64,000 nt of DNA from Chloroflexota bacterium (lineage in GTDB: Bacteria > Chloroflexota > Anaerolineae > Anaerolineales > Villigracilaceae): assembly GCA_016195815.1 (NCBI GenBank), contig JACPYX010000006.1, positions 248,001 through 312,000 on the forward strand, in the 5' to 3' direction. Below, piece by piece: positions 32,171 to 58,839 of the stretch. Position 1 is the stretch's first letter; the number at the start of each line of letters is the position of its first letter. The notes beneath the pieces are model-generated. The model made no database searches. It saw only the letters and a list, made by a program, of their open reading frames with translations, and was not told where the DNA came from. Made by a program: the position numbers and the translations under genes.

Positions 32171-32830
32171 TCAGTTTGAGATATATTCCCTCAGGCTGTG
32201 TTCCACTGCATACGCGGCTGCTTCGGCGCGATTGTTCACGCCCAGTTTCGAGAGAATGCTCGAAACGTAATTTCGCACCGTCCCTTCGCCGAGGAAGAGA
32301 TTTTTGGCGATCTCGCGGTTGGTCTTGCCCTCCGAAACCAATAAGAGGACATGTTTCTCCTGCTGGCTCAGATGAACGAAGGCCGACGCTTCCTCTTCTT
32401 TGACCGCGCGGCGGACTTCCTGAAAGACGCGCTGTGTCACAGCCGGGTCTAAAAGCGCCTCGCCGCGGCTGACGGCCTCGAGTGCTTTGACCAGGTCATC
32501 GCTCCCGATCTGCTTCAGGATGTAGCCCGAAGCGCCGGCGCGGATGGCCGAGAACAACATTTCATCTTCCGCGTACGACGTCAACATGATGACCTTCGTG
32601 CCCGGAAACTTGTTGACGATTTCTTCGCAGGCTTCAATGCCGGATGTGCCGGGCAGGCGGATATCCATCACCACGACTTCCGGTTTGAGCGATGTGACCT
32701 GCTCAAGCGCCTCGCGGGCCGATCCCGCCTCACCTACGACCTCAAACTGGGGATGGCGTTCTAAAAGCGACTTCAATCCCAGGCGCACGACTTCGTGATC
32801 GTCCACCAATATAATTCTTTGTTTTACCAT
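32171..32830 (-). CDS. NarL/LuxR-family response regulator
   Basis: 219 residues. Receiver: [10 protein letters not shown], phosphoacceptor Asp in [13 protein letters not shown], Thr in VIMLTSY, Lys in YILKQIG. The DNA-binding LuxR helix-turn-helix is at the C-terminus ([35 protein letters not shown]). No histidine kinase is adjacent; the nearest one is over 12 kb away. Upstream on this strand are CGGAGGAAAATATTCCCC before the ATG and a TATACT box about 30 bases further up, so it has a short leader. Confidence 0.93.
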
Positions 32831-32906
32831 GGGGAATATTTTCCTCCGATATGTCCGCGAAAGAGTATAGCCGAGAGCATAATGTCTGGCAAGGGCGGTT
32901 AAACGC

Positions 32907-32935
32907 GCAGGGGCGAGGCATTGCCTCGCCCCTGC
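32907..32935. repeat. Perfect 14-bp palindromic element
   Basis: GCAGGGGCGAGGCA and TGCCTCGCCCCTGC flank one T. It lies between the hsp20 stop and the NarL regulator promoter. There is no T tract on the hsp20 strand. Similar 'ggggcgaggca' palindromes are common as dispersed elements in related genomes, which I recall but cannot verify here. Confidence 0.65.
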
Positions 32936-32953
32936 ATGGCAGGGTTGGATTGG

Positions 32954-33403
32954 TTATTTGGCCTTGACGGTAATCATCTTCGGCTTGACTTCCTCTGCTT
33001 TGGGCAGGGTGATCGTCAGGATGCCATTCTCGAACTCGGCTTTGGCCTTGTCGGAGACTACATTGGTCGGAAGCACCACACTGCGTTCAAAGCTCCCCCA
33101 GCGTTGTTCGCGAATGTGATAGCTCTTCTCATCAGTCTCCTGCTTCTGGCTGGTCTCACCCTTGATGGTGAGCATGTCGCCGGTCACAGAGATCTGTACT
33201 TCATCGGCCTTCACGCCGGGTACAGCCGCCTTCACGACCACTTCGTTGTCGGTCTGATACATGTCAATGGCTGGAATGCCCGAACCTCGCCAGCCGTCTT
33301 TCAGACCAAGCGGATGGGTGAAGGCGTCATCGAAGAGACGATCCATGGCCTCGCGCAGAGTCACCATCTCACGCATCGGTTCCCAACGAATTAGATTAGA
33401 CAT
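32954..33403 (-). CDS. hsp20: Small heat-shock protein (Hsp20/alpha-crystallin)
   Basis: 149 residues. The alpha-crystallin domain runs about residues 38-140: IPAIDMYQTDNEVVVKAAVPG, EVQISVTGDMLTIKGE, and GSFERSVVLP. The C-terminus has ENGILTITLPK and VKPKMITVK, but no clear IxI motif after it. ATP-independent holdase against aggregation. The start at 33403 has AAGGAGG five bases upstream; the ATG at 33418 overlaps that site. No CIRCE element seen; a TATATT just after the upstream terminator may be its -10 box. Confidence 0.94.
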   Translation of the reverse strand: MSNLIRWEPMREMVTLREAMDRLFDDAFTHPLGLKDGWRGSGIPAIDMYQTDNEVVVKAAVPGVKADEVQISVTGDMLTIKGETSQKQETDEKSYHIREQRWGSFERSVVLPTNVVSDKAKAEFENGILTITLPKAEEVKPKMITVKAK

Positions 33404-33445
33404 AGCGACCTCCTTCATGAATGGTTGGGTTTACGCCCTTAATAT

Positions 33446-44464: not shown

Positions 44465-45343
44465 TTACTTTATTCTTCGGATGATTGCGTCAATCACCGT
44501 CAACTTACCTGCCTGATTAAAAGTGTGCGTTGCCAGAATTTTTCCTCCCTGCGGCCTGAACTCTGACACAATTACTTCTTCATATTCGTTTTCATTTAAC
44601 TTCATAATGCGATTGAACTTGAGGACGTATCCATATCGGCGGGCCGAATCCTGGGAAGGGCGGATCAACTCTCCGTCCAGAGAAAAGATGCGGCCCGCAG
44701 GCCGCGCCGAGTGAATGTCTTTGATGATCGGATTAAGCGGGTGCGGCGTCCATTGATCAGACAGCGGGCTGTCTGCATAAAAAAGATGCAACGCGTCAAG
44801 GCTGGAACCACCCTCTTCTTTGACATTTGCGAACAGCCACCATTTCTTTTCATGTTCAAGCAGGGTCGCGTCCACAACATAAAGATCCGTCATCAGCGTT
44901 TTGATCAACTGCCATTGATCGGGGAAATGCGCGCAGCGATATAACTCAAGCGAGCGATTGGCCGCCGTTTCGGGCAGCATATAAATTTCACCCCGCAGCT
45001 GAAAAATGAAGGGATATGAAAGATGATACGGCCGTTCGAGGACCACTTGATTGGATAAGAGGCCGCCATCTTCATCGAGCGTCAGGCAGGCAATGTGTGC
45101 CCGGCCTGTTGCGTACATTTTCTCTTCAATGAAAACGTAATAATTGTTTTCCCTCTGGAAGATGAATGGGTCTGCCCAATAACGGTCTTTATCGGGGATG
45201 AGCGGCCGCAACGCGGACCATTGAAGCGAATCGCGGCTGATATCTTTCCCGGCCATGATCACCCACTGGTCGAGAAAAAATATCGAAGACAGCGTTTTAT
45301 CTATCTTGCGAACAACCCGCTGGATAAAGAACGGCTGCCTCAT
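44465..45343 (-). CDS. GINT1-type five-bladed propeller / GH43-like protein
   Basis: 292 residues. WADPFIFQRENNYYVFIEEKMY and AYHLSYPFIF-like YHLSYPFIFQLRGEIYMLPETA are the repeated Asp/Pro/Phe strands of the five-bladed propeller found in the N-terminal domain of glucosamine inositolphosphorylceramide transferase-like proteins and in GH43-like folds. The blade Asp residues (ADPF) suggest sugar binding. No signal peptide. In some bacteria this domain is linked to formyltransferase-like enzymes. Overlaps the upstream GNAT gene by four bases. Confidence 0.75.
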   Translation of the reverse strand: MRQPFFIQRVVRKIDKTLSSIFFLDQWVIMAGKDISRDSLQWSALRPLIPDKDRYWADPFIFQRENNYYVFIEEKMYATGRAHIACLTLDEDGGLLSNQVVLERPYHLSYPFIFQLRGEIYMLPETAANRSLELYRCAHFPDQWQLIKTLMTDLYVVDATLLEHEKKWWLFANVKEEGGSSLDALHLFYADSPLSDQWTPHPLNPIIKDIHSARPAGRIFSLDGELIRPSQDSARRYGYVLKFNRIMKLNENEYEEVIVSEFRPQGGKILATHTFNQAGKLTVIDAIIRRIK

Positions 45344-46167
45344 TCCATCCCTTCGGTTGACTCTGCGATCGTTTCCGGGATTGTCCCGTTTGCTTTTTCC
45401 GGGGATGTCTCTGCGCCCGTCTCTCTTGGGTGAAAGGCCGTGAAATATGCGAGCGGGCGATAGCCAATGCGGCGATACAAATGTAAGGCTATTTCAGATG
45501 GGATCACGACCATGTGTTCAAGGTTCTGGCGGTTGCAATGCTGGTGAGCGCGTTCAACCAGGGCGCGGCCGATGCCGCGCTGGCGAAAGGCGCTCATCAC
45601 ATAAACCTGGTTGAGATATCCAACGCCGGGATAGATGGTGACCAACTGCGCCCAGCCGGCGATTTGTCCGTCTGCCTTTGCATAAAAATTATGGATATGT
45701 TTTCCGCGCAGGCATTTTGTGGGCATGTGTTCGTTCTCAACGGAAAGAGTCAGGTTTATTTCCTCGGCTTCATGGATCTTGACGGCTTTGTGAATTCCGG
45801 AAAGGTTGGAACGGATTTGAATCGGCAGGTCCAAACCGAGGATTACGCCGGTGCGGACGAATTCGTAGCCTTCGAGAAGATAATCTGTTTTAAGGGTCTT
45901 GGAGGACGGCTTGTCGTGAAAGATATCCAACACATATTTTTGTCCGTCAATTGGATAAGCGTGTATCGCCTCGACGATCTCTTTTGGGTTGGATGTGAGC
46001 GCCAAAAATTCCAGTTGATACGGCGCAATGGGCGCGTCTCTGTAAATGGATACACCGATGATGCCGCGCGATTCGTAGCCCGTGCCATATACAACCTGAT
46101 AGACGTGGTTGTAGGAGGCGATCATGGCTTGCACAGCCCACCAATTTTCAATGTTTGGATGATTCAT
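45340..46167 (-). CDS. GNAT N-acetyltransferase, two-domain
   Basis: 275 residues. The C-terminal GNAT core is clear: IAGWAQLVTIYPGVGYLNQVYV (motif D-A) and FRQRGIGRALVERAHQH (acetyl-CoA Q/RxxGxG/A loop), then MVVIPSEIALHLYRRIGYRP. The N-terminal half (about 1-125) is a degenerate GNAT-like domain: VYGTGYESRGIIGVSIYRDA. The polar C-tail (GAETSPEKANGTIPETIAES) is probably disordered. Overlaps both neighbours by four bases, so it is tightly coupled in a four-gene operon. Confidence 0.82.
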   Translation of the reverse strand: MNHPNIENWWAVQAMIASYNHVYQVVYGTGYESRGIIGVSIYRDAPIAPYQLEFLALTSNPKEIVEAIHAYPIDGQKYVLDIFHDKPSSKTLKTDYLLEGYEFVRTGVILGLDLPIQIRSNLSGIHKAVKIHEAEEINLTLSVENEHMPTKCLRGKHIHNFYAKADGQIAGWAQLVTIYPGVGYLNQVYVMSAFRQRGIGRALVERAHQHCNRQNLEHMVVIPSEIALHLYRRIGYRPLAYFTAFHPRETGAETSPEKANGTIPETIAESTEGME

Positions 46168-47042
46168 GCGGAAGGGTCCAGTGTGCTTTCGCCGTCGGTG
46201 AGAATGTAAAAACTACGCGGCCGGCTTTCGCCCTGGTCAAAGACGAAGTCTGTTACGAGGTAGCCTTTGGCGAAAGCGGTCTCGAAGAATTCGCGCGAGA
46301 AGAAGCGCCAGTCGCGAGCCAGGGCAAAGTCAGCGGACTTCATAGCCATAAAGTCGGATGGGATTTCGGCCGCGATCAGCTGGGCTTCCAGCGGCGGAAA
46401 ATGGCCGGGTGGGCGCGGCCAGTCATCGGGTCCGGTTGGAAGCGTGAAATGCGGCTGTATGCCGACGCGCGTTAGATGATTCAATTTTAAAGTCGGGCGT
46501 GCCCGTTTGCTAAGTCGCCGTTCGACGCGTTTGGTGTTGATCCACCAATCCACTTGAAAACGGTCGGATGGAAGCCCGGCGTTGAGGCCGTCGCGCATGT
46601 CGCCATACTCGGAGCGGTGATATGTGGAGCAGACTGCGCCGAGACGGGCGATGTTCAACTGCGCATTGCGGCTGAGCAGTGGATCATAAGTCCAAGTGAT
46701 GTGATCGAGGCCCTGATGCCGAATCATTTGCCATTGCGCGCGTTTGAGGGCGAAGCCCAGGCCGCTGTTGCGATGGTCGGGATGGACGCCTGCCATGTGC
46801 GAACAATGCTTGGGACGCGGGCCATCGGGAGTGGTTTCGAGGCCCGGAAAGCCGAAGACGAAGCCGACCAGTTCGTCATCCGCGAATGCGCCGAGTACCA
46901 ATCCGCCATTATGCGCGGCGGTGATGAGCATGTGCGCGGGGACAATGTCGGTTTCACTGCCGGGCCAGATCACGCGTTGCAGGGCCTCAACAGCCGACAG
47001 TTCTTCAGGAGTTTCCAAAAGGCGAATGTGAGCGTGTGGCAT
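46164..47042 (-). CDS. COG3375-type GNAT-superfamily protein
   Basis: 292 residues. The N-terminal half carries the GNAT pattern: ETPEELSAVEALQRVIWPGSE, LVLGAFADDELVGFVFGFPG, and HMAGVHPDHRNSGLGFALKRAQ. The C-terminal half (RVERRLSKRARPT onward) is the extra domain of the predicted acetyltransferase group COG3375, which often occurs with enolase-superfamily racemases. None is here. The ATG is three bases after the SDR gene stop. Substrate unknown. Confidence 0.82.
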   Translation of the reverse strand: MPHAHIRLLETPEELSAVEALQRVIWPGSETDIVPAHMLITAAHNGGLVLGAFADDELVGFVFGFPGLETTPDGPRPKHCSHMAGVHPDHRNSGLGFALKRAQWQMIRHQGLDHITWTYDPLLSRNAQLNIARLGAVCSTYHRSEYGDMRDGLNAGLPSDRFQVDWWINTKRVERRLSKRARPTLKLNHLTRVGIQPHFTLPTGPDDWPRPPGHFPPLEAQLIAAEIPSDFMAMKSADFALARDWRFFSREFFETAFAKGYLVTDFVFDQGESRPRSFYILTDGESTLDPSA

Positions 47043-47045
47043 TGT

Positions 47046-48029
47046 TTATAAGCGGAATGTTCGGATCGATTCCAAAACCTTCCCGGTCGTTTCGGAAATT
47101 CTTTTTATTGCCCTGTCCCAAAACTCGGCGTACCAGGGCGTGCGCTTAAGATAATCGAGACGATAAGCGAAGCGCGCCGGCATCAGGCCAAAGGCGTCCG
47201 GCAAATTATCCACGGGGCAGGTGCGGCTGATCGAAACGTAATCGAGCCAAAACGAAGAGGCGGGGTAATTTGGAACGAAGGTCTCCAGGGTTACGATCAG
47301 CGCCCGCAGCAAAACAGGATGAAGCTCGAATAATAGGTGCGGCCGGTGTGTGGCCTGCATAATGATTTCCAGGATCTGCCGTATAGTGAAATATTCGCTT
47401 CCGCCGATCTCGTACGTTTGATTGAGGGTGTTTTCATTATTCAGCGACCACATGATCACAGAGGCCAGGTCTTCGACCCAAAGCGGCTGGATCACCGTTC
47501 GTTCGCCGCTGGGGAAGGGAAAGAAAAAAGGCGACATCTGCAACAAGCGCGCCAAACTTGTCGTGAAATGATCTTCGGGTCCGAAGACGAGCGAAGTCCG
47601 AATGATGGTGAATGGCACACCCGAACGACGGATGTGTTCTTCAGCAATCCCTTTGGCCTTGAAGACCGGAAACCCCGATGAACGGCTGGCTCCCAGGTGG
47701 CTGACATAGATCATGCGCTTTATGCCCGCCTCAGCCGCAGCCCGTGACAGATTCTGTGTGCCGCGCATATCCACGGCTGACAATTTCGCGTCGCGCCCCT
47801 GCGACTCGCTCCCAGCCAGATGAATGATCGTGTCCACATCTTTGAGCGCAGTTTGAATCGCCTTATCGTCTGCCAGGCTGACGACGGCGACTTCAACCGG
47901 GACGCCTTTCGGGAGGCGCGGTGAGCGCCGCGATGGGCGAATCAAAACGCGGACCTGGCGTCCGGTCTCAAACAACTGACGGATCAAGGCGCGCCCAATA
48001 AATCCTGTCGCGCCGGTGACTAATATCAT
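47046..48029 (-). CDS. Atypical SDR / NAD(P)-binding nucleoside-sugar epimerase-like protein
   Basis: 327 residues. The Rossmann start MILVTGATGFIGRALIRQL carries GxTGxxG. VDTIIHLAGSESQGRD, then FTIIRTSLVFGPEDHF are conserved in complex I-like (NDUFA9) and YwnB/Ycf39-type atypical SDRs. The YxxxK pair is not evident in the usual place, fitting atypical SDRs. The start at 48029 is chosen for the -10 box seven bases upstream; an in-frame ATG at 48095 would add a non-conserved tail. First gene of the four-gene minus-strand operon; divergent from the giant sensor. Confidence 0.85.
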   Translation of the reverse strand: MILVTGATGFIGRALIRQLFETGRQVRVLIRPSRRSPRLPKGVPVEVAVVSLADDKAIQTALKDVDTIIHLAGSESQGRDAKLSAVDMRGTQNLSRAAAEAGIKRMIYVSHLGASRSSGFPVFKAKGIAEEHIRRSGVPFTIIRTSLVFGPEDHFTTSLARLLQMSPFFFPFPSGERTVIQPLWVEDLASVIMWSLNNENTLNQTYEIGGSEYFTIRQILEIIMQATHRPHLLFELHPVLLRALIVTLETFVPNYPASSFWLDYVSISRTCPVDNLPDAFGLMPARFAYRLDYLKRTPWYAEFWDRAIKRISETTGKVLESIRTFRL

Positions 48030-48036
48030 GCGATGG

Positions 48037-48042
48037 ATTATA
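48037..48042 (-). promoter_or_regulatory. -10 box of the SDR operon (leaderless type)
   Basis: Minus-strand TATAAT, seven bases before the ATG at 48029. Confidence 0.55.
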
Positions 48043-48183
48043 GCAGAGGAAGAAAAGCCGCGATTTTTAGAATGAAATTGAAAGCAAACTAACAAAGTTA
48101 TATGCCAGAATTAAGATATGGGATGTACAATAAATTTGTCTAGCGATGTCTTATCAATAAATTGGAACATGGATTGAGTTTGG

Positions 48184-51100
48184 ATGAAATCGAAATTAAA
48201 TTCTGGGTATATCCCTCGTTCGCCTAAAGGGAAAAAGGACAACTCATTCCGTTTGCTCTTTCAAAGTAACCCGCTGCCCATGTGGATCTATGACCTGGAA
48301 ACATTGTGTTTCCTGGACGTCAATGAAGCGGCAATAGAGCATTACGGCTATTCACGCGTTGAGTTTTTGAAAATGAAAATCTCAGACATCCGCCCGCCGG
48401 AGGATGTCGAGCGCGTTAAAAAACATGTGCAGGCCAAACGGCCGCGCTTGCAGCATTCGGGGGAATGGCGGCACTGCAAAAAAGACGGTTCGATTATCCA
48501 TGTTGAAATCACATCTCATAAATTGATTTATGAAGACCATAAAGCCGCGCTGGTTTCGGCAAAAGACATTACGGCGAACAAACTTGCCCAGAAGTCGTTG
48601 GCGGAATCCGAAGAGCGATATCGAAATCTGGTTGAGAACTCACTGGCCGGCATATACCAAACAACCGTGCAGGGAAAGATCATTTATGTCAACGATGTGC
48701 TGGCCCAATGGGTGGGCTTTAAATCGGCGAAAGAGATGTTGCTGCTCGGATCTGCTCAAGAGCTTTATAAGCATCCCGGCGACCGTAAAAAGATCATTGC
48801 CGCGCTGAAGCGGGGCGGCGTAGTAACCAACTTTGAAACCCAGTTCGTCACTCGCTCGGGGGAAGTGAAATGGGTGTGGATAAGCGCCAGCCTGAAAGAT
48901 AATGTTATTTCAGGTATCGTGCATAATATTACCGAGAGTAAGCGCCTTGAAGACTCGGCCCGCGCGCTTGAAGCCAGCTACCACAGTCTATTTAATAGCG
49001 TGGCAGAAGCGATCTATATTCAAGACCGCAAAGGCCGCTTTTTGGACGTCAATGACGGCGCGGTCAAAATGTATGGTTATCCGCGCGAATTTCTGATAGG
49101 CAAGACACCGGCGCTTATTTCTGCGCCGGGCAGGAACGATCTGAAAAAAGTGCAGCGCGCCATCCAATTGGCCTTCGAGGGCCAGCCGCAGGAATTCGAG
49201 TTCTGGGGATTACGGCGCGGCGGAGATGTCTTTCCCAAGAATGTGCGTTTGTATAAGGGAGACTATCTCGGCCAGGATGTGATCATTGCCCTGGCGCAGG
49301 ATATTACCGAACGCAAGCGCGCCGAACAAGCTCTGCGTATGGCAGAGGCGAAGTATCGCTCGCTGGTGGAACATGTCTCTGTGATCGTTTATATGGATGC
49401 CGTTGATCACTTAAGTTCCACCCTCTATATGAGCCCCCAGGTGGAAAAGATGCTGGGCTATTCGGCGGATGAATGTATAGCAGATGGTCAATTCTGGCTT
49501 TCGATCATTCATCCTGATGACCGCTCGAACTGGCTGGCTGAAAATGATCGCACCAATCAAACCGGCGATCCGTTCCAACTGGAATATCGCGTCATGGCCC
49601 GCGACGGCCGCATCGTATGGATCCGCGATGAGAGCGTCCTGATGCGCGACGATTCGGGACGCCCGCTTTTCTGGCAGGGCGTAATGATCGATATCACCGA
49701 CCGCAAACAGGCCGAAGAATCGCTGACCGCCTCCGAAGCAGAATTGCGCGCTTTGTTCGCATCCATGCCGGATGTAGTGCTGGTGCTCGATAAAGAGGGC
49801 CGTTATCTCAAAATCGCTCCCACCAACTCCGATTTGCTGTATCAACCGGCAGACGTGATGCTCGGTAAACGCATGCACGAGGTCTTCTCGCGGCAAAAGG
49901 CCGATGAGTTGGTGGGACACATCCGCGAGGCGCTGGATAAAAAGCAGACCGTTCGCTTTGAATATGCGCTTTTGCTTGGCGGCCAAATCACCTGGTTTGC
50001 AGGCACGACTTCTCCGCTGACAGAAGACTCGGTCGTTTGGGTCGGACGCGATATTACCGCGCGCAAATTGGCCGAGGATGCCCTGCTCGCCAGCCAGGAT
50101 TTACTCAAGGATGCCCAGCGCATCGCACATATCGGCAGTTGGGATCTGGATATAAAGAACAATGTTCTCGCCTGGTCTGATGAGGTTTATCGCATATTCG
50201 AGATAGCCCCGCAGCAGTTTGAAGTTTCTTATACGGGCTTCCTGAACGCCATCCATCCCGATGACCGCGCCATGGCAGATCAGGCATACACCGATTCTGT
50301 AAAAAACAAAACGCCCTATTCGATCACCCACCGCCTGCTTTTCCCGGATGGGCGGATCAAGTACGTTCACGAAAGATGCGAGACGATTTATAACGCCATT
50401 GGCGAACCGGTTCGTTCCATCGGCACTGTGCAGGATATTACCGAACGCAAGCTGGCCGAAGACGCCCTGCAACAGCGCATCAATGAACTCTCCATGATTT
50501 ACGCCGCATCCCAGCGCCTCCAGCAGATTCTTACGCCTGAAACTCTCGCAGAAGAACTGATTCGTCTTTTGGAAAAAATTCTTAACTACGAGTATGGCGC
50601 CGTTCTTGTAATAGACAGACCATCCGGCAGATTGATTCCTTTTGCTATTAGCGACCAGGGACGTGGAATTGAGTTTGCTGAAGCAAATAAGAAAATGATC
50701 ATGTCTCACGATTTTCGTGTGGGACATGGAATTACAGGCTGGGTTGCCGAACATGGCCAGAGTGTTTGTGTCGGTGATATTCATAATGATTCCCGCTATT
50801 ATGGTTTACGAACAGATGTCAATTCGGAATTGTGCGTTCCCCTGCGCGTCGGAGATCAGATCGTCGGTGTCGTGAACATCGAGAGCGCCAGGCTGAACGC
50901 CTTTACCGAATCCGATCAACGCCTGCTTGAAACTATCGCGGCGCAGATCGCGATCGCCATCCAGAATGCGCGCCTGTTCGAGGCCGAGCACCTGCGCCGC
51001 CAGGAGGCCGAGACTTTACGGAATGCGGCCAACACGCTCACATCCAGCCTTGACCTGGAAGATGTATTGAACGGGCTGCTGGACGGACTGGCTCTCGTTG

Positions 51101-52656
51101 TCCCGTTCAACAGCACGGCCGTTTTTCTAAGGGAGAATGGAAATTATCGCGCCATTGCGGCACGCGGTTTTGATTCACCGGAACAGGTAAAGGGACAGAT
51201 ACTCCCGGGAACAAACGAACTAGCGTACATCGTCGAAGAAACGTGCCGCCCGCTTATTTTGCCGGATGTCAAAACGGACGACCGTTTCGCGGGCTGGGGA
51301 CCAGCAAATAAGATTCGCGGCTGGATGGGTGTCCCGTTGGTCGCGCGCGATCAGGCCATCGGCTTTTTAACGATTGACAGCCATCATCCAAATGCTTTCA
51401 CAGAGGCCAATGCAGAGATGGCTCTGGCTTTCGCCAATCACGCTGCGACCGTCATCCAGAATGCCCGTCTCTATCAAGAGGCGCTTCGTCGAATGTCCGA
51501 GTTGCAAACTTTGCATGAAAGCGGGCTGGCGCTTGGCAAATCTCTTGACCCAAGGGAGATCAGCGAAAAAGTGGTCAACGTGCTCTCACATGGCCTGAAT
51601 TGGCATCACGCCGCGGTGCGCGTACGGCGCGGCGACAGCAATGAGGTTGAACTGCTGGCTTTTAGCCAGACAAATCGTGAGGGCTTAATAGAAAAGATAG
51701 ATACAAGCCGCTTGATGGCGGGTAAAGCCATCACGAATATCAGCGATGGCATGGCAGGCTGGGTAATTAAACATGGGCGCATGATTAATAATGGCAGCCT
51801 GCAGGACGATCCGCGTTATTACGAAACGTTTCCCGGCATGCAGTCAGGTCTGTATGTGCCGATCTGGGCGGGCGGGCAGACGCTGGGTTGCATCAGCGTT
51901 GAAAGCGAACAGCCCAATGCATTCAGTGAGGCGGATGAGCGCTTGCTGACCACGCTGGCTTCGCAGGCCGCCTCGGCTTTGGAAAATGCGCGCCTGTTCG
52001 CGGCGGAGCAGGCGCGCCGTCGGGACGCGGAAATTCTCCAGCAGGCCGCATCCGCTCTCTCGTCCAGCCTGGACCCGCAATTGGTCGTTGACAAATTGCT
52101 GGACGGTTTATCCCAGGTCATGTCTTTTGACAGCTCAACGGTCTTTATTGAAGAAAAGGGAATGCTGCGCGCGATATCAGGAAGAGGATTGATCTATCCA
52201 GAAAAGGTGATTGGGCGGTTGTTCCCGGGCAATGGAGAATTGGCAAAGCAAATCTGGGAAACACGCCGTCCGGTCATCGTGCCCGATGCAAAAGCCGATG
52301 CGCGCTTTGGTAAATGGGGAACGGATCAACCGATACGGGGTTGGATGGGCGTGCCTTTGATCGCACGCGGCAATGTAATTGGCTATCTAACTTTAGACAG
52401 CCTCAGTCCCAACGCTTATGGAGATGCCGATGCTGAGATGGCCCTGGCATTTGGCAGCCATGCCGCGGCCGCTATTGAAAATGCGCGCCTGTATCAGGAC
52501 GCTGTTCGTTCGACGGAGCGCCGCCAGGTTTTGCACGCGGCCAGCCAGGAGATCGCCCGTATCAGCCAGGACCTTCAACAGGTCTATGCTTCGATCCACC
52601 GCGCGGCCACTCAATTAATGCCGACCGAAGCGTTTGTCATTTCATTGTTGGATTAG
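48184..52656 (+). CDS. Multi-PAS/GAF sensor, N-terminal part of an amber-split protein
   Basis: 1490 residues, soluble. Six PAS/PAC units fill about residues 20-760; five end with a DITxxKxAxxAL linker. Then four complete GAF domains (about 770-1440) separated by coiled-coil linkers such as QNARLFEAEHLRRQEAE, and the first third of a fifth GAF. The reading frame stops at TAG (52654-52656) inside that GAF, and the same frame continues to an HD-GYP domain at 56667. With the stop counted as one residue, the fifth GAF aligns in register to the sixth (FVISLLD-stop-ERSEVEGVY versus FTIALVNDAENQIDGVF). Likely one protein in a close relative. No SD is obvious before the ATG. Confidence 0.85.
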   Translation: MKSKLNSGYIPRSPKGKKDNSFRLLFQSNPLPMWIYDLETLCFLDVNEAAIEHYGYSRVEFLKMKISDIRPPEDVERVKKHVQAKRPRLQHSGEWRHCKKDGSIIHVEITSHKLIYEDHKAALVSAKDITANKLAQKSLAESEERYRNLVENSLAGIYQTTVQGKIIYVNDVLAQWVGFKSAKEMLLLGSAQELYKHPGDRKKIIAALKRGGVVTNFETQFVTRSGEVKWVWISASLKDNVISGIVHNITESKRLEDSARALEASYHSLFNSVAEAIYIQDRKGRFLDVNDGAVKMYGYPREFLIGKTPALISAPGRNDLKKVQRAIQLAFEGQPQEFEFWGLRRGGDVFPKNVRLYKGDYLGQDVIIALAQDITERKRAEQALRMAEAKYRSLVEHVSVIVYMDAVDHLSSTLYMSPQVEKMLGYSADECIADGQFWLSIIHPDDRSNWLAENDRTNQTGDPFQLEYRVMARDGRIVWIRDESVLMRDDSGRPLFWQGVMIDITDRKQAEESLTASEAELRALFASMPDVVLVLDKEGRYLKIAPTNSDLLYQPADVMLGKRMHEVFSRQKADELVGHIREALDKKQTVRFEYALLLGGQITWFAGTTSPLTEDSVVWVGRDITARKLAEDALLASQDLLKDAQRIAHIGSWDLDIKNNVLAWSDEVYRIFEIAPQQFEVSYTGFLNAIHPDDRAMADQAYTDSVKNKTPYSITHRLLFPDGRIKYVHERCETIYNAIGEPVRSIGTVQDITERKLAEDALQQRINELSMIYAASQRLQQILTPETLAEELIRLLEKILNYEYGAVLVIDRPSGRLIPFAISDQGRGIEFAEANKKMIMSHDFRVGHGITGWVAEHGQSVCVGDIHNDSRYYGLRTDVNSELCVPLRVGDQIVGVVNIESARLNAFTESDQRLLETIAAQIAIAIQNARLFEAEHLRRQEAETLRNAANTLTSSLDLEDVLNGLLDGLALVVPFNSTAVFLRENGNYRAIAARGFDSPEQVKGQILPGTNELAYIVEETCRPLILPDVKTDDRFAGWGPANKIRGWMGVPLVARDQAIGFLTIDSHHPNAFTEANAEMALAFANHAATVIQNARLYQEALRRMSELQTLHESGLALGKSLDPREISEKVVNVLSHGLNWHHAAVRVRRGDSNEVELLAFSQTNREGLIEKIDTSRLMAGKAITNISDGMAGWVIKHGRMINNGSLQDDPRYYETFPGMQSGLYVPIWAGGQTLGCISVESEQPNAFSEADERLLTTLASQAASALENARLFAAEQARRRDAEILQQAASALSSSLDPQLVVDKLLDGLSQVMSFDSSTVFIEEKGMLRAISGRGLIYPEKVIGRLFPGNGELAKQIWETRRPVIVPDAKADARFGKWGTDQPIRGWMGVPLIARGNVIGYLTLDSLSPNAYGDADAEMALAFGSHAAAAIENARLYQDAVRSTERRQVLHAASQEIARISQDLQQVYASIHRAATQLMPTEAFVISLLD

Positions 52657-52668
52657 GAACGCAGTGAG

Positions 52669-55600
52669 GTGGAGGGAGTTTATTTGTTCGACCGCAATGG
52701 GCGCAGTCCGGCGGCCCGCATCCCGCTAGGGCAGGGACTGTCGAGTCGGGTGATCGCGAGCGGGGAATCGATTCTGATTAATGATGATCTGGAAAACAAT
52801 GTGGCGGGAGTGCACTTTGGCTCGCCGGATGCAGTGCGTTCGATCCTGGCCGTGCCTCTGCGTGTGAGCGGCAAAGTGATCGGGGCGATCTCAGCCCAGA
52901 CGTATCAGCCGGGTATTTATGACGATGAGGACCGTCTCCTGCTTGAGTTGCTGGCCGTGCAAGCCGCCATTGCGATTCAAAATGCGCGCCTTTATCAAGA
53001 CGCTTTGTATGCGGCCGAACGCCGCTCTGTTTTGCATTTGGCCGGGCAGGAAATTGCGCGCCTGGGCCAGGACTCGGAACAATTGTATAAAGCGATCTAT
53101 CAGGCGGCGCTCCGTTTGATGCCGACCGATATGTTTACCATCGCCCTGGTCAACGACGCTGAAAATCAAATTGACGGCGTTTTTGCCGTTGATCGCGGAG
53201 TACGCGGACCGTTCGTCGGTTTCCCGTTTAACATGGGTATCGCTGGATGGGTGATCCGTACGAATAAAACACTTCTCCTGAAAGATTACGATGATCCGAG
53301 CGTAACCATAGAACGCGTCCAGTTTTCGGATAATCAACCGACCCGCTCGGTTCTGGCTGTTCCATTGCGGTCGGGCGAAAAAGTAATTGGTTCGATGTCG
53401 GTCCAGAACTATGAAGTAAACCGATATACTGCTGAAGATAGTATTCTGCTCGAGATGCTGGCCGCGCAGGCGGCGGTGGCGCTAGAAAATGTACGCTTAT
53501 TCGAGCAGGTCCGGCGGCGCATCAAAGAACTGGAGTCGTTGAACCGCGCCAGCCAGGCATTGACCGGTTCTCTCGACCTGGAACCGCTGCTTGAGAACAT
53601 CCTTTCTTCGGCCAAGGATGCGATTGCAGGCGCGGAAAAAGGCACGATCCTGTTATGGGATAAGGATAGTGACTATTTACGAGTGCGTACCCAAATCGGG
53701 TATACGGATGCGCGGATTTTGGAATTGCCTTTCCGCTCTGAAAAAGGCTATTCGGGCAGGGCCTTCCGGGAAAAGCGGCCCATTTTAATTGAGAATGCCC
53801 TTACTGATTATGAACTCCCTTTCGATGAAAGAGTCGATGAAGTTTATGCAGTGCAAAGCGGGGTTGTCGCGCCCTTGATCGTAAAAGACGCGGCGATTGG
53901 CGTGATCGCTCTTGATAATGCAACTAAAAAAGGGGCCTTTACAAAAGAAGATCTTAATCTGTTGATGCTCTTTGCATCTTCCGCTGCCAGCGTGATCGAG
54001 AATGCCCGTCTGTTGGCAGAGACCCGCCGGCGGGCTGGGGAATTTGAAGCGCTGTACCAAACGGCGGCCGATGTAGCGTCTCAGACTGACTTGAAAGTTT
54101 TGTTGGACACCATCATCGAACGTGCCCAAACATTATCCGGCGCGTCAGGCTCGGGACTTTATCTGTTTGACCCGGAACGCAACGACCTCGAGCTGGTGGC
54201 GATCAATGATCCTGATATCCGCCCCGGCACCCGCCTGGTTCTTGGAGAGGGAATTTCCGGGCATATCGCACAGACCAAACAGCCGCTCATTGTTGATGAT
54301 TACCGAACCTGGGAAAATAGTTCTTCTCATTACAAGGGGATTCCCATCACTTCCGTGCTTGGAATCCCCATGCTTTACAGCGGAGAATTAATTGGGGTAT
54401 TGAACGTGCATAATCGCGCAGACATCAATCAGACGGAGTCAACACACATGTTTACCGAACAGGATATTAATCTGTTATCCCTGTTCGCCAATGCTGCGGC
54501 CGGCGCGGTGTATAGCGCGCGCCTGCTCGATCAAACCCGCCGCCGTTTGGACGAGCTCAGCGCTGTGGCGCAAGTCTCTTCGGCTTTGCGTACCGTTGTA
54601 ACCCGCTCTGAGATGTTGACCATTGTATTGGACCAGTTGATGGAAATCGCTCATGCGGACGGCGCTGCACTGATCACATCCATCCCTGGGAGAGACGAAT
54701 TGCTGATCGAGGCGGCGCGCGGCGCGAATGCAGCCTTTGCCGGAATGTGGATCCCGCCAGGCGAGAGTTTATCGAGGGTTGTGATCGAGACGGGGAAAGC
54801 ATACACCAGCCCGGATGTGCGTACGGATGCGCGCCTCTTTCGCCCGGGCGTGACTGATAGCGCGCGCGCCATCACACTTGTACCTTTAAAATACTTTGAC
54901 GATACGATCGGCGCGCTCTCGCTTGTCAGGGAAGAGAAAGACGGCAGAATGCCGCCCCCGTTTTCAGAGGCCGATATTCGTTTGTTGAACGCCATTGCGG
55001 ATATGGCCGCCAATGCTCTTCAACGCAGCAGCCTGCATGAAGAGACTGCTCGTTACGCCGGACAACTGGTTATCATCAATGATCTCGGTCACTCTCTCTC
55101 GGAGACTCTCGACCTGGCGCATATTTACGAGAAACTCTCTCGCGCCATTCTGGACCTGCTGCCGGACAGCGCGGCGGTATTCGTTTCACTCTTCGACTCG
55201 CGCGAACGATCTGTTGAAACAGTGTATGGCGTCCAGGCCGGCGCGGTTGTCAATCCGGCTGATTTGCCCTCGGTGTTGTTCGACGAATCGGGCTATGGGA
55301 ACCAGAGTCAGGTTATCTTGAGCGGCAAGCCGCTGATTGTCCCGGATTTGAGCGTATCGCTTAAAGAAAAGAGGGCTGTTCTTGTTAAGTCGGGGCATGA
55401 AAAGCGGATTACGCAGTCTGCTTTATATGTCCCGATGAAGGCGGAAGGCCAGGTCATCGGTGTTTTACATGCGCAGTCTTACGATAAGAATCGCTATAAA
55501 TCCACTGACGCCGAATTGCTTGAGCTTGTGGCCAATACGGCCGGGGCGGCTATTCAGAATGCACGTTTGTTTGCGCAGATCAAGCGCCGCGTAGACCAAC

Positions 55601-56667
55601 TCTCGGCCCTGCACGCAGTGGATACTACCATCAGTTCCACCACCGATCTGCGCGTCAGCCTGCAAGCTGTGTTGGGGAATGTCGCCCGTCATCTGAAAGT
55701 TGATGCGGCAGATGTCTTGCTGCTGAATTCCTCCACGCTGGTTCTGCAATATGCCGCTGGGCTTGGTTTCTTTACAGCGGAGATCGCGCATACAAACCTG
55801 CCTTTGGGAAAAGGGCTGGCGGGCGTATCCGCCCTGGAGCGGCGCGTTGTGCGCATCCCCAGCCTGGCCGAGGCGGGCGTCGGATTTATCCGCGATAACA
55901 TGATCTCAAGCGAAAAATTTGTTGCTTATCTGGCTGTGCCTTTGATCGCCAAGGGCGAGGTCAAAGGTGTTTTGGAGATCTTTCAGCGTTCTTCATTGGA
56001 ACAAGACGATGATTGGATGTCTTTCCTGGAGATGCTGGCAGGGCAGGCCGCGCTGGCAATTGATAACGCCTTATTGTTCGAGGGTCTGGAAAAAGTCAAC
56101 ATTGAGCTGACCATGGCATACGACGCCACCATCCAGGGCTGGTCACAGGCTTTGGAATTACGCGACCAGGAGACGCAGGGACATTCCATGCGCGTGCTCG
56201 GTCTGACTTTGCGCCTGGCGGGCGCGCTGGAAATTTCAGACAAGGAAATACAAGATATGCGCCGCGGCGTGCTGTTGCATGATATCGGCAAGATGGGCAT
56301 CCCCGATTCGATCCTGCATAAACCCGGCAAGCTGACCGACGAGGAGTGGGAGATCATGCGCAAGCATCCCAAGTATGCTTATGATATGTTGTCGCCGATC
56401 GTTTATCTTCGCAACTCGCTTGATATTCCTTATTGTCATCATGAAAAATGGGACGGCACTGGCTATCCGCGCGGATTAAGCGGGGAGACGATTCCTCGCG
56501 CGGCGCGTATCTTTGCAGTCGTGGATGTTTACGACGCGTTGACGTCTGACCGGCCTTATCGCGAGGCATGGCCAGAAGAAAAGGCCCTGGATTACATTCG
56601 GGAACAATCCGGCACGCATTTCGATCCGCGTATTGTTGATATTTTCCTGAAGCTTATCGAGAAATAA
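52669..56667 (+). CDS. Multi-GAF HD-GYP phosphodiesterase, C-terminal part of an amber-split protein
   Basis: 1332 residues from a GTG at 52669, in the same frame as the upstream gene and 12 bases after its TAG. It opens mid-GAF, then has about six further GAF domains and a C-terminal HD-GYP domain: LLHDIGKMGIPDSIL, IMRKHPKYAYDML, YCHHEKWDGTGYPRGL and DVYDALTSDRPYR, all metal and GYP residues present. HD-GYP enzymes degrade c-di-GMP. AGGA lies about 10 bases before the GTG, so reinitiation is possible, though it would give a broken first domain. If not translated, the cell loses the output domain. Short gap to the glycan cluster. Confidence 0.85.
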   Translation: MEGVYLFDRNGRSPAARIPLGQGLSSRVIASGESILINDDLENNVAGVHFGSPDAVRSILAVPLRVSGKVIGAISAQTYQPGIYDDEDRLLLELLAVQAAIAIQNARLYQDALYAAERRSVLHLAGQEIARLGQDSEQLYKAIYQAALRLMPTDMFTIALVNDAENQIDGVFAVDRGVRGPFVGFPFNMGIAGWVIRTNKTLLLKDYDDPSVTIERVQFSDNQPTRSVLAVPLRSGEKVIGSMSVQNYEVNRYTAEDSILLEMLAAQAAVALENVRLFEQVRRRIKELESLNRASQALTGSLDLEPLLENILSSAKDAIAGAEKGTILLWDKDSDYLRVRTQIGYTDARILELPFRSEKGYSGRAFREKRPILIENALTDYELPFDERVDEVYAVQSGVVAPLIVKDAAIGVIALDNATKKGAFTKEDLNLLMLFASSAASVIENARLLAETRRRAGEFEALYQTAADVASQTDLKVLLDTIIERAQTLSGASGSGLYLFDPERNDLELVAINDPDIRPGTRLVLGEGISGHIAQTKQPLIVDDYRTWENSSSHYKGIPITSVLGIPMLYSGELIGVLNVHNRADINQTESTHMFTEQDINLLSLFANAAAGAVYSARLLDQTRRRLDELSAVAQVSSALRTVVTRSEMLTIVLDQLMEIAHADGAALITSIPGRDELLIEAARGANAAFAGMWIPPGESLSRVVIETGKAYTSPDVRTDARLFRPGVTDSARAITLVPLKYFDDTIGALSLVREEKDGRMPPPFSEADIRLLNAIADMAANALQRSSLHEETARYAGQLVIINDLGHSLSETLDLAHIYEKLSRAILDLLPDSAAVFVSLFDSRERSVETVYGVQAGAVVNPADLPSVLFDESGYGNQSQVILSGKPLIVPDLSVSLKEKRAVLVKSGHEKRITQSALYVPMKAEGQVIGVLHAQSYDKNRYKSTDAELLELVANTAGAAIQNARLFAQIKRRVDQLSALHAVDTTISSTTDLRVSLQAVLGNVARHLKVDAADVLLLNSSTLVLQYAAGLGFFTAEIAHTNLPLGKGLAGVSALERRVVRIPSLAEAGVGFIRDNMISSEKFVAYLAVPLIAKGEVKGVLEIFQRSSLEQDDDWMSFLEMLAGQAALAIDNALLFEGLEKVNIELTMAYDATIQGWSQALELRDQETQGHSMRVLGLTLRLAGALEISDKEIQDMRRGVLLHDIGKMGIPDSILHKPGKLTDEEWEIMRKHPKYAYDMLSPIVYLRNSLDIPYCHHEKWDGTGYPRGLSGETIPRAARIFAVVDVYDALTSDRPYREAWPEEKALDYIREQSGTHFDPRIVDIFLKLIEK

Positions 56668-56721
56668 TATTGCTGATGAAGCTGGCTTTCATAATACATC
56701 GAACTTTATTCAGAATACTTC

Positions 56722-56750
56722 TTTTTGTTGTTCCAGATAAAGGATATAAT
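56722..56750 (+). promoter_or_regulatory. Probable promoter of the glycan cluster
   Basis: TTTTTG at 56722-56727, 17-base spacer, TATAAT at 56745-56750; leader of about 118 bases to the ATG at 56875. The leader has no clear regulatory fold that I can see. Confidence 0.55.
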
Positions 56751-56874
56751 CGCTGTCTTGGGGAGGCCAGTCTTCCTTTTTGGATATCATTAAGATCCAT
56801 TATCCTGGTCAGGAAGTCCTATTTAATTTATCCTTTATTCGTCCTTGATGGGAGATTCAAGAAACGGAGACATC

Positions 56875-58839
56875 ATGAATGGTCAACAACCTGAAACCGG
56901 AGAGGATGTCGGGAATGTCCGGCGACTCATTGCCTTTATAGGAATTTTTCTTCTTCTAGCCAGTCAGATCCTTGTTTTTTCCAACCCAGTAGTTGATGGC
57001 GTTGTTTTTCCCTGGTACATCTGGCTAAGTATTTTTGGGGTTGTTATTTTGATCTTGAGCAAGGTCTTCCGTCCGACGCCGTTCTGGCAGAAGTTGTCGG
57101 CTCGTTTTGCCTTCCGGGAACGGGTCTTTTGGATTTTGGTTGCCGCCCTGTTGTCGGTTTTAGCTACCTGGGCTTCCGCCGTTTTCCCTACTTTCACCCG
57201 CATTACTTACATACCTGTGACCACGTTGTGGTTCTTAAGCGCGGTTAGTTATATTTATGCGTTGTCAAAGGGAATTTTTAGTCCCCAATCATTGATGGAT
57301 TGGATCAGAAATCATCGCGACGAGATTTTTATAGTCGCTGTAGTAACGCTACTGGCAGCTGTTTTACGTTTTTATAAGCTGGGTGCTATTCCGCGTATAT
57401 TGGATGGAGACGAGGGGTTGATAGGCCTGACCGCACAAAACACCGTTTCCGGTGCGTTTGCCAATCCGTTTGCCCTGTGGGAAAACTTCGGTGCTCTTTA
57501 CTTGCAGGCAATCAATCTTTCATTTAGGTTTTTCGGAACTACTCCCTTCGCATTGCGGTTGTTGCCTGCGATCGGGGGCACCCTGGCTGTTCCTGCCATA
57601 TATCTTCTGGCGCGCCAAATCAGCGGCCGCAGAATTGCATTGATTGCGGCTTTTCTTGTGGCAATCTCGCAAACGCATATTCATTTCAGCCGTATTGTGT
57701 CCGTGGCTTATATTCAAGAAACCTGGCTTATACCCCTTGCATTATATTTTTTTATAAGCGGCCTGGAGAAACGCCAATCTTGGAGAGCTGCATTAGGTGG
57801 GGTATTACTGGCAGCCGATTTTTCCGTTTACTTGACAGCCCAGGTTGTTTTTGCCCTTGCGCTGGCTTACATGCTGGTTGCTTTTCTGTTTTACCGGACG
57901 TGGTTCGCGCCTCGTTTTCGTCAGATGATGTTTTTTTGGGGAGGATTCTTAATTACCATTCTGCCCGAGGCTTTCTATATTTTGAAAAACCCCAGCAATT
58001 TCTTGAATCGAATATCTCAGGATGGGGTGTTCCAGTCTGGCTGGTTGGCGGATACCATGAAAATTACAGGGCAGAACGCCGTACAGATCTTGTTTGAGCG
58101 GGTTGTACACGCCTTCCTGTCTTTGATCTATTATCCCGCGTTTGATTTCTATGGTTCCCCTGTGCCTCCTCTGGGCATGATTTCAGGCGTACTGTTTTTG
58201 GCCGGGCTGGGATTGGCATTATGGCGGGTTCGAGACCCAGGCTACCTGCTGTTGAATGGTTACTTTTGGGCAGCCACTCTTTCGATAGGCATATTTGCCA
58301 TTCCTCCATCTGCAGATTCTTATCGAATGTTAATGGCTTTGCCCGCAGCGCTTATCATGTCATCTCTGGGCCTGGATCAAATCCTCGAGTTGTTGGGCCT
58401 GGGTTGGAAGAACGCGCGCAATGCTTATATGTTCTCTGCAACAGCCATTCTCGTCAGCCTCATGATATTTAACTTGTGGACGTATTATGGGGATTTTGCA
58501 GGACGATGCCGTTTTGGAGGAAACCTGGTCGGTCGTTTTGCATCTTATCTGGGAAGTTACGCCAATACAATTGATAATGAACTGCCTGTCTATTTGCTCA
58601 GCAATGACCAGTATTTTTATGGAAGTCATGCGTCCACTGATTTTTTGAGTCAGGGCAGGCCCATTATCAATTTCCCCGGTTCAATAGATGAGTTGAATCC
58701 GGTTTCCGGTGAAACCATTATCGCCAGCCCAGATCGAATTCCAGAATTGGCGGCCTGGGCGCGCACCCATCCGGGAGGCCTGCTTCGTTACCAGTATGAT
58801 TGTCAAACCACGATCCTGCTGGCGTATCAAGTTCCTTGA
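56875..58839 (+). CDS. ArnT/PMT-like GT-C membrane glycosyltransferase
   Basis: 654 residues with about 12-13 membrane helices. After the first helices, RFYKLGAIPRILDGDEGLIG carries the Asp-Glu pair on the first extracytoplasmic loop typical of the GT-C superfamily (PMT/ArnT DE motif). ALRLLPAIGGTLAVPAIYLLARQISGRR and SQTHIHFSRIV continue the family pattern. It should use a polyprenyl-phosphate sugar. A soluble C-terminal domain of about 120 residues follows (YLLSNDQYFYG onward). Start at 56875 has GGAGACATC before the ATG; an ATG at 56845 is also in frame. First of five co-directional glycan genes. Confidence 0.85.
   Translation: MNGQQPETGEDVGNVRRLIAFIGIFLLLASQILVFSNPVVDGVVFPWYIWLSIFGVVILILSKVFRPTPFWQKLSARFAFRERVFWILVAALLSVLATWASAVFPTFTRITYIPVTTLWFLSAVSYIYALSKGIFSPQSLMDWIRNHRDEIFIVAVVTLLAAVLRFYKLGAIPRILDGDEGLIGLTAQNTVSGAFANPFALWENFGALYLQAINLSFRFFGTTPFALRLLPAIGGTLAVPAIYLLARQISGRRIALIAAFLVAISQTHIHFSRIVSVAYIQETWLIPLALYFFISGLEKRQSWRAALGGVLLAADFSVYLTAQVVFALALAYMLVAFLFYRTWFAPRFRQMMFFWGGFLITILPEAFYILKNPSNFLNRISQDGVFQSGWLADTMKITGQNAVQILFERVVHAFLSLIYYPAFDFYGSPVPPLGMISGVLFLAGLGLALWRVRDPGYLLLNGYFWAATLSIGIFAIPPSADSYRMLMALPAALIMSSLGLDQILELLGLGWKNARNAYMFSATAILVSLMIFNLWTYYGDFAGRCRFGGNLVGRFASYLGSYANTIDNELPVYLLSNDQYFYGSHASTDFLSQGRPIINFPGSIDELNPVSGETIIASPDRIPELAAWARTHPGGLLRYQYDCQTTILLAYQVP

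Follow-up and report, generated by a model that had tools for sequence, protein, structure and literature searches.

The window analysed here is a 64,000-nucleotide stretch (contig C11, positions 248001-312000) of a 3.16 Mb Chloroflexota genome (G000) that is assembled in 23 contigs and 97.9% complete. On its forward strand, a single 8.5-kb frame (48184-56667) codes for a PAS/GAF/HD-GYP sensor, and the sole interruption of this frame is one TAG codon. When read through, the frame is 2827 positions long, and position 1491 is its only stop. An earlier note, made from the sequence alone, had described the locus as two open reading frames in the same frame, of 1490 and 1332 aa, the second with a GTG start and separated from the first by TAG plus 12 bases. 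Its coordinates, its joined length and the sequence that it quoted around the stop all agree with what we found. The features of the locus are depicted in Table 1.

Table 1. Features of the interrupted sensor gene and its neighbours (window coordinates).
Feature	Position	Strand	Remarks
5' part of sensor gene	48184-52656	+	1490 aa, ends in TAG; six PAS, four complete GAF, then helix and first strand of fifth GAF
In-frame amber codon	52654-52656	+	Position 1491 of 2827; sense codon in 29/29 aligned relatives
3' part of sensor gene, same frame	52657-56667	+	Remainder of fifth GAF, six more GAF, HD-GYP
Open reading frame with GTG start, same frame as 48184-52656	52669-56667	+	1332 aa
Interrupted fifth GAF domain	52501-53013	+	Placed by Pfam GAF_2 scores, alignment and model
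First candidate re-initiation codon, GTG	52669-52671	+	Weak AGGA at a distance of 10 bases on the 5' side, sharing bases with the stop; codes for Val in G004 and G005
GGAGG (52671-52675) eight bases before in-frame TTG (52684-52686)	52671-52686	+	Best candidate re-initiation site
HD-GYP phosphodiesterase domain (extent of HD_5 match)	56143-56634	+	HD, HDIGK and HHEKWDGTGYP motifs present
Divergent neighbours: GINT1_N-like, two GNAT, NmrA/epimerase	44465-48095	-	Served to establish orthology

The domain content proposed earlier (six PAS, about eleven GAF and one HD-GYP) was borne out by Pfam. The joined frame contains 11 GAF_2 stretches, four in the 5' half and seven in the 3' half, and one HD_5/HD domain; PAS (PF00989) is matched in six stretches when the 5' half is scanned alone and in five when the joined frame is scanned. 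HD-GYP c-di-GMP phosphodiesterases are recognized by an HD domain with the HD, HDIGK and HHExxDGxGYP motifs. All of these are found in the 3' half, where the HD_5 match scores 137 bits against a cut-off of 27.2, and we predict that this half encodes such an enzyme. The closest solved structure to the HD-GYP domain by sequence is PDB 4mcw (E 1.9e-51), a metal dependent phosphohydrolase that we take to consist of a GAF followed by an HD-GYP domain. Its HD, HDIGK and HHE.WDGTGYP motifs align with those of the window domain, although it is a chain of 369 aa and not a giant multi-PAS/GAF sensor. No clear membrane-spanning segment was detected in the sensor protein (the highest 19-residue Kyte-Doolittle mean, 1.82, lies within the GAF array), and the sensor is therefore taken as probably cytosolic. 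By eye, no Shine-Dalgarno sequence is evident within 25 bases upstream of the sensor ATG at 48184. Weak DNA repeats are present in the GAF array (50910-53496): a 64-nt stretch at the ends of GAF domains occurs in four copies, 61-72% identical to the reference copy and spaced by 1020, 996 and 507 nt, and 50965-51489 matches 51985-52509 over 525 nt at 64% identity. These repeats suggest a possible old duplication of GAF pairs.

The stop lies inside a GAF domain, as had been proposed, namely the fifth. Read through, this domain scores 75.0 bits with GAF_2; from the GTG at 52669 onward it scores 63.1 bits and covers profile positions 45-136 only, and the 51 aa preceding the stop match no profile when scanned alone. 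The break therefore sits within a domain and not between domains. The alignment and a low-confidence AlphaFold2 model place the stop at the β1-β2 turn. In this fragment model, which was built from five sequences (mean pLDDT 61) and used solely to place the stop, the stop would be residue 52, between strands at 46-51 and 56-61.

To determine whether the gene is ancestrally one piece or two, homologs were aligned across the site, as the earlier note had proposed. Relatives of the sensor gene are present in all five congeners searched (G001-G005), and in four of them the frame runs uninterrupted through the site: 2863 aa in G003, 2563 aa in G004, 2506 aa in G005 and 2054 aa in G002. G001 provides only a contig fragment, with Asp at the site; an apparent parallel frame break in this genome (contig C28, about query position 1517) falls on two N in the contig sequence and was rejected. 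In all four congener stretches (G002-G005), the sensor gene is adjoined by the NmrA gene, the GNAT gene at 46164-47042 and the GINT1_N-like gene; identity to the window proteins is 68-81% for NmrA and GNAT and 66-72% for GINT1_N-like, further out. The second GNAT gene (45340-46167) is matched in two of the four, and three genes tested downstream of the sensor have no match in any of them. Through this shared locus with its divergent neighbours, we identify as uninterrupted orthologs the genes on JAJPIZ010000043.1, JAJYLQ010000001.1 and PMLN01000068.1 (taken as G003, G004 and G002, respectively), all from Anaerolineae/Chloroflexi metagenome-assembled genomes. They align with the window protein from the N-terminal PAS region to the end of HD-GYP, and differ in having a sense codon at the site and lengths of 2054-2863 aa. 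In the alignment with G003-G005, little or nothing corresponds to window protein residues ~630-750, 1100-1260 and 1605-1775 (the gaps being larger in G003), and these relatives therefore differ from the window protein in their number of PAS/GAF units.

All 29 relatives whose loci were retained have a sense residue in the aligned site column (E 19, D 3, K 2, N 2, Q 1, R 1, P 1), and their aligned parts contain no stop codons. G002-G005 are among these 29; the set consists of homologous GAF sensors, of which some may not be orthologs. In G003, the site residue is Glu both in the global alignment, where a neighbouring GAF lies at the site, and in the local alignment, which is the better match. 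In a family-level search of 150 genomes, including the window's own, 138 had a match at E 1e-30 or better, and among the 150 matches listed, only the window's own gene has a stop inside. The same is true among the 16 matches listed for G000. The earlier note had raised the case that homologs might always occur as two separate genes with complete domains; no such halves were found among the relatives seen or the matches listed, which are single frames instead. Since the homologs are single genes through the site, this comparison clearly points to a sensor gene that was ancestrally one piece and to a lineage-specific break, arising by nonsense mutation or by consensus error. Of the four options left by the earlier note, the sequence comparison supports a nonsense mutation or an error; an evolved split and programmed readthrough find no support. 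The nearest congeners are ~55-65% identical in aligned segments, with no strain close enough to date the change.

A second giant frame with GAF homology, of 2479 aa, is found ~65 kb before the window (G000:C11:175818-183254, corresponding to L105:5819-13255), preceded by a frame that by eye begins like a response regulator; among the matches listed, many genomes of the family likewise have frames of ~2470-2500 aa. A candidate second broken giant sensor at G000:C11:176301-181568 was rejected, as the region lies within this one intact 2479-aa frame.

We surveyed a 464-kb sample (the window plus 400 kb of its own genome, with genes called by a simple codon-usage script) for consecutive genes in the same frame. 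Among 36 such pairs, the sensor pair is extreme, with the first ATG 154 codons past the stop; the next five pairs have 50, 41, 33, 23 and 22 codons. Nine of the other 35 pairs, i.e., these five and four more from the window, were scanned with Pfam in a survey that is blind to frameshifts, and eight of the nine are separate genes, either unrelated or paralogous. The next-longest pairs are NmrA/DUF2867 paralogs, an HSP20 gene with a response regulator (window 32171-33418), DUF4147/MOFRL with NMT1-like, the one pair that gave no clear answer (61 aa lacking a Pfam match followed by TadE), and EamA with glutamine synthetase. The four additional pairs are HSP70 with a C39 peptidase, formyltransferase with PolX-like, DUF4032 with DHDPS, and two SHOCT-like genes. 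The NmrA/DUF2867 paralogs form a tandem, adjacent and in the same frame, on the minus strand at G000:C11:14592-17531 (L171:14592-17531). In-frame breaks therefore appear uncommon in this genome. This speaks mildly against an assembly with many errors overall and against readthrough on a systematic scale.

Amber readthrough, whether programmed or suppressed, would give some full-length sensor, and the frame does continue intact for 1336 codons past the stop. A survey of bacterial genes with in-frame stops has argued that such stops are often read through (Belinky et al. 2021, PMC7918605), and the window gene resembles those cases in having a stop inside an otherwise conserved gene; the conserved cases of that survey recur across species, whereas the window stop is found in one genome only. 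The absence of a stop from all 29 aligned relatives likewise argues against a conserved recoding site. The cell reads TAG conventionally: TAG ends 68 of the 331 genes called in the 464-kb sample, the five TAG stops cited in the earlier note (734, 956, 22846, 24842 and 26216) are in place, and RF1 is present (494 bits, cut-off 423). None of the 46 tRNA genes that Rfam detected has the anticodon CTA according to ARAGORN, which read every one of them, in a genome whose 97.9% completeness leaves room for a missed tRNA. PylS gave only sub-threshold matches, and 13 of 14 control genomes match at this level too. Amber reassignment, pyrrolysine and a suppressor tRNA were rejected on the basis of RF1, the tRNA set, PylS and TAG usage. 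RNA around the stop folds no better than shuffles (z -0.04), providing no sign of a stimulatory structure. A special route for readthrough is accordingly not supported, leaving background misreading, and we regard readthrough as very improbable. A wrong base in the consensus of what is presumably a metagenome assembly would instead produce a false stop in an intact giant sensor gene. Apart from a single codon the gene is undamaged, a sense codon stands at the site in each of the aligned relatives, and the two N at the G001 break illustrate that base-level artefacts do occur among the compared genomes. Against this, the assembly is good, and no other gene cut in frame was recognized in the 464-kb sample, where nine of 35 other pairs were domain-checked, one of them without a clear answer, and frameshifts would be invisible. 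Consensus error is a minority possibility, with perhaps a one in five chance.

Another explanation is a functional division by the stop into two products, a PAS/GAF sensor protein and a constitutive GAF/HD-GYP phosphodiesterase, the latter translated by termination-coupled re-initiation. The intact HD-GYP motifs fit this explanation, as does the GGAGG eight bases before the in-frame TTG, which begins 27 bases after TAG: only six of 195 in-frame start codons of the gene body have a Shine-Dalgarno match of at least five, and finding one at either of the first two start codons past the stop is mildly unusual (roughly 6%). On the other side, the break inside the fifth GAF costs this domain its first helix and strand, there is no ATG for 154 codons, and features that would serve as start signals occur as coding sequence in intact relatives, the GTG in G004 and G005 and the GGAGG in G005. 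The only differing start feature is therefore the TTG, which is TTA in G004 and G005. Sigma-70-like sites in 47900-57000 number 8 against 7.5 expected, giving no indication of an internal promoter before the second half, and the nearest such site on the plus strand upstream of 52669 ends at 50802. Re-initiation of the second half is possible as judged from these signals, but a functional split is improbable, and since separate genes for the two halves were found in no relative seen and in no match listed, it is unlikely that an evolved split has parted the sensor from the phosphodiesterase. In a more speculative form of the idea, a one-step switch at the amber codon would release the GAF/HD-GYP enzyme from the six-PAS sensor; with termination-coupled re-initiation yielding both halves, the lineage would have a constitutive enzyme and an orphan sensor, and the allele might be polymorphic in the population. 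This form is equally doubtful.

A recent nonsense mutation is the most likely explanation (probability roughly 0.66), ahead of consensus error, functional split and readthrough. It is favored by the intact orthologs at the same locus, the otherwise open frame, the presence of RF1 and the use of TAG as an ordinary stop; on the other hand, a consensus error would look identical, and the Shine-Dalgarno-like GGAGG near the TTG allows for a functional second product. The age of the lesion can be bounded from the frame itself. Of all point changes in the frame, 3.76% would give a stop, and by our own arithmetic an unconstrained 3' half of 4008 bases that has taken d substitutions per site should have gained ~151 x d new stops. 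No new stop is seen in the 3' half, and d is therefore below about 0.02 (95%) if this half is unconstrained. GC3 is alike in the two halves (0.595 and 0.600). These counts fit a young lesion, continuing selection on the second half, or no lesion at all; the absence of further decay, while expected of a young nonsense allele, also fits selection on the second half.

We propose that a single recent, lineage-specific nonsense substitution arose in an otherwise intact gene for a giant cytosolic PAS-GAF-HD-GYP c-di-GMP phosphodiesterase. Ribosomes would terminate at 52654 to produce a 1490-aa sensor fragment without an output domain, and the HD-GYP half would not be made, or would be made weakly by re-initiation at the GTG at 52669 or the TTG at 52684, in which case the product would have no PAS input and a damaged first GAF. 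With seven further HD-GYP-type domains in the genome, the loss may be tolerable. Eight HD_5 domains are present including that of the sensor gene, and 11 GGDEF matches exceed the cut-off, so the c-di-GMP substrate is probably made and the loss of one phosphodiesterase is plausible. Searches of the literature on interrupted genes in metagenome-assembled genomes and on split sensor genes found nothing useful, and those on giant GAF/HD-GYP sensors in Chloroflexi found nothing relevant among the matches listed. The Shigella flexneri c-di-GMP cyclase genes dgcE, dgcQ and dgcN are interrupted by nonsense mutations, and several of their products have been shown by experiment (PMC11327459). As in the window gene, the reading frame of a c-di-GMP enzyme is cut short ahead of its catalytic domain, and a possible start lies further down or close by; the enzymes are, however, GGDEF cyclases rather than an HD-GYP protein, and the alternative starts listed for them are Met. 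By analogy with these nonsense-mutated cyclases, weak re-initiation might leave an HD-GYP enzyme without its sensor.

If both halves were functional, the locus would be a natural example of the separation of a sensor from its enzyme by one mutation. The two-gene annotation looks intact and yet represents one ancestral gene, and caution is warranted, as a single base can distort the tally of c-di-GMP enzymes and sensors in genomes of this kind.
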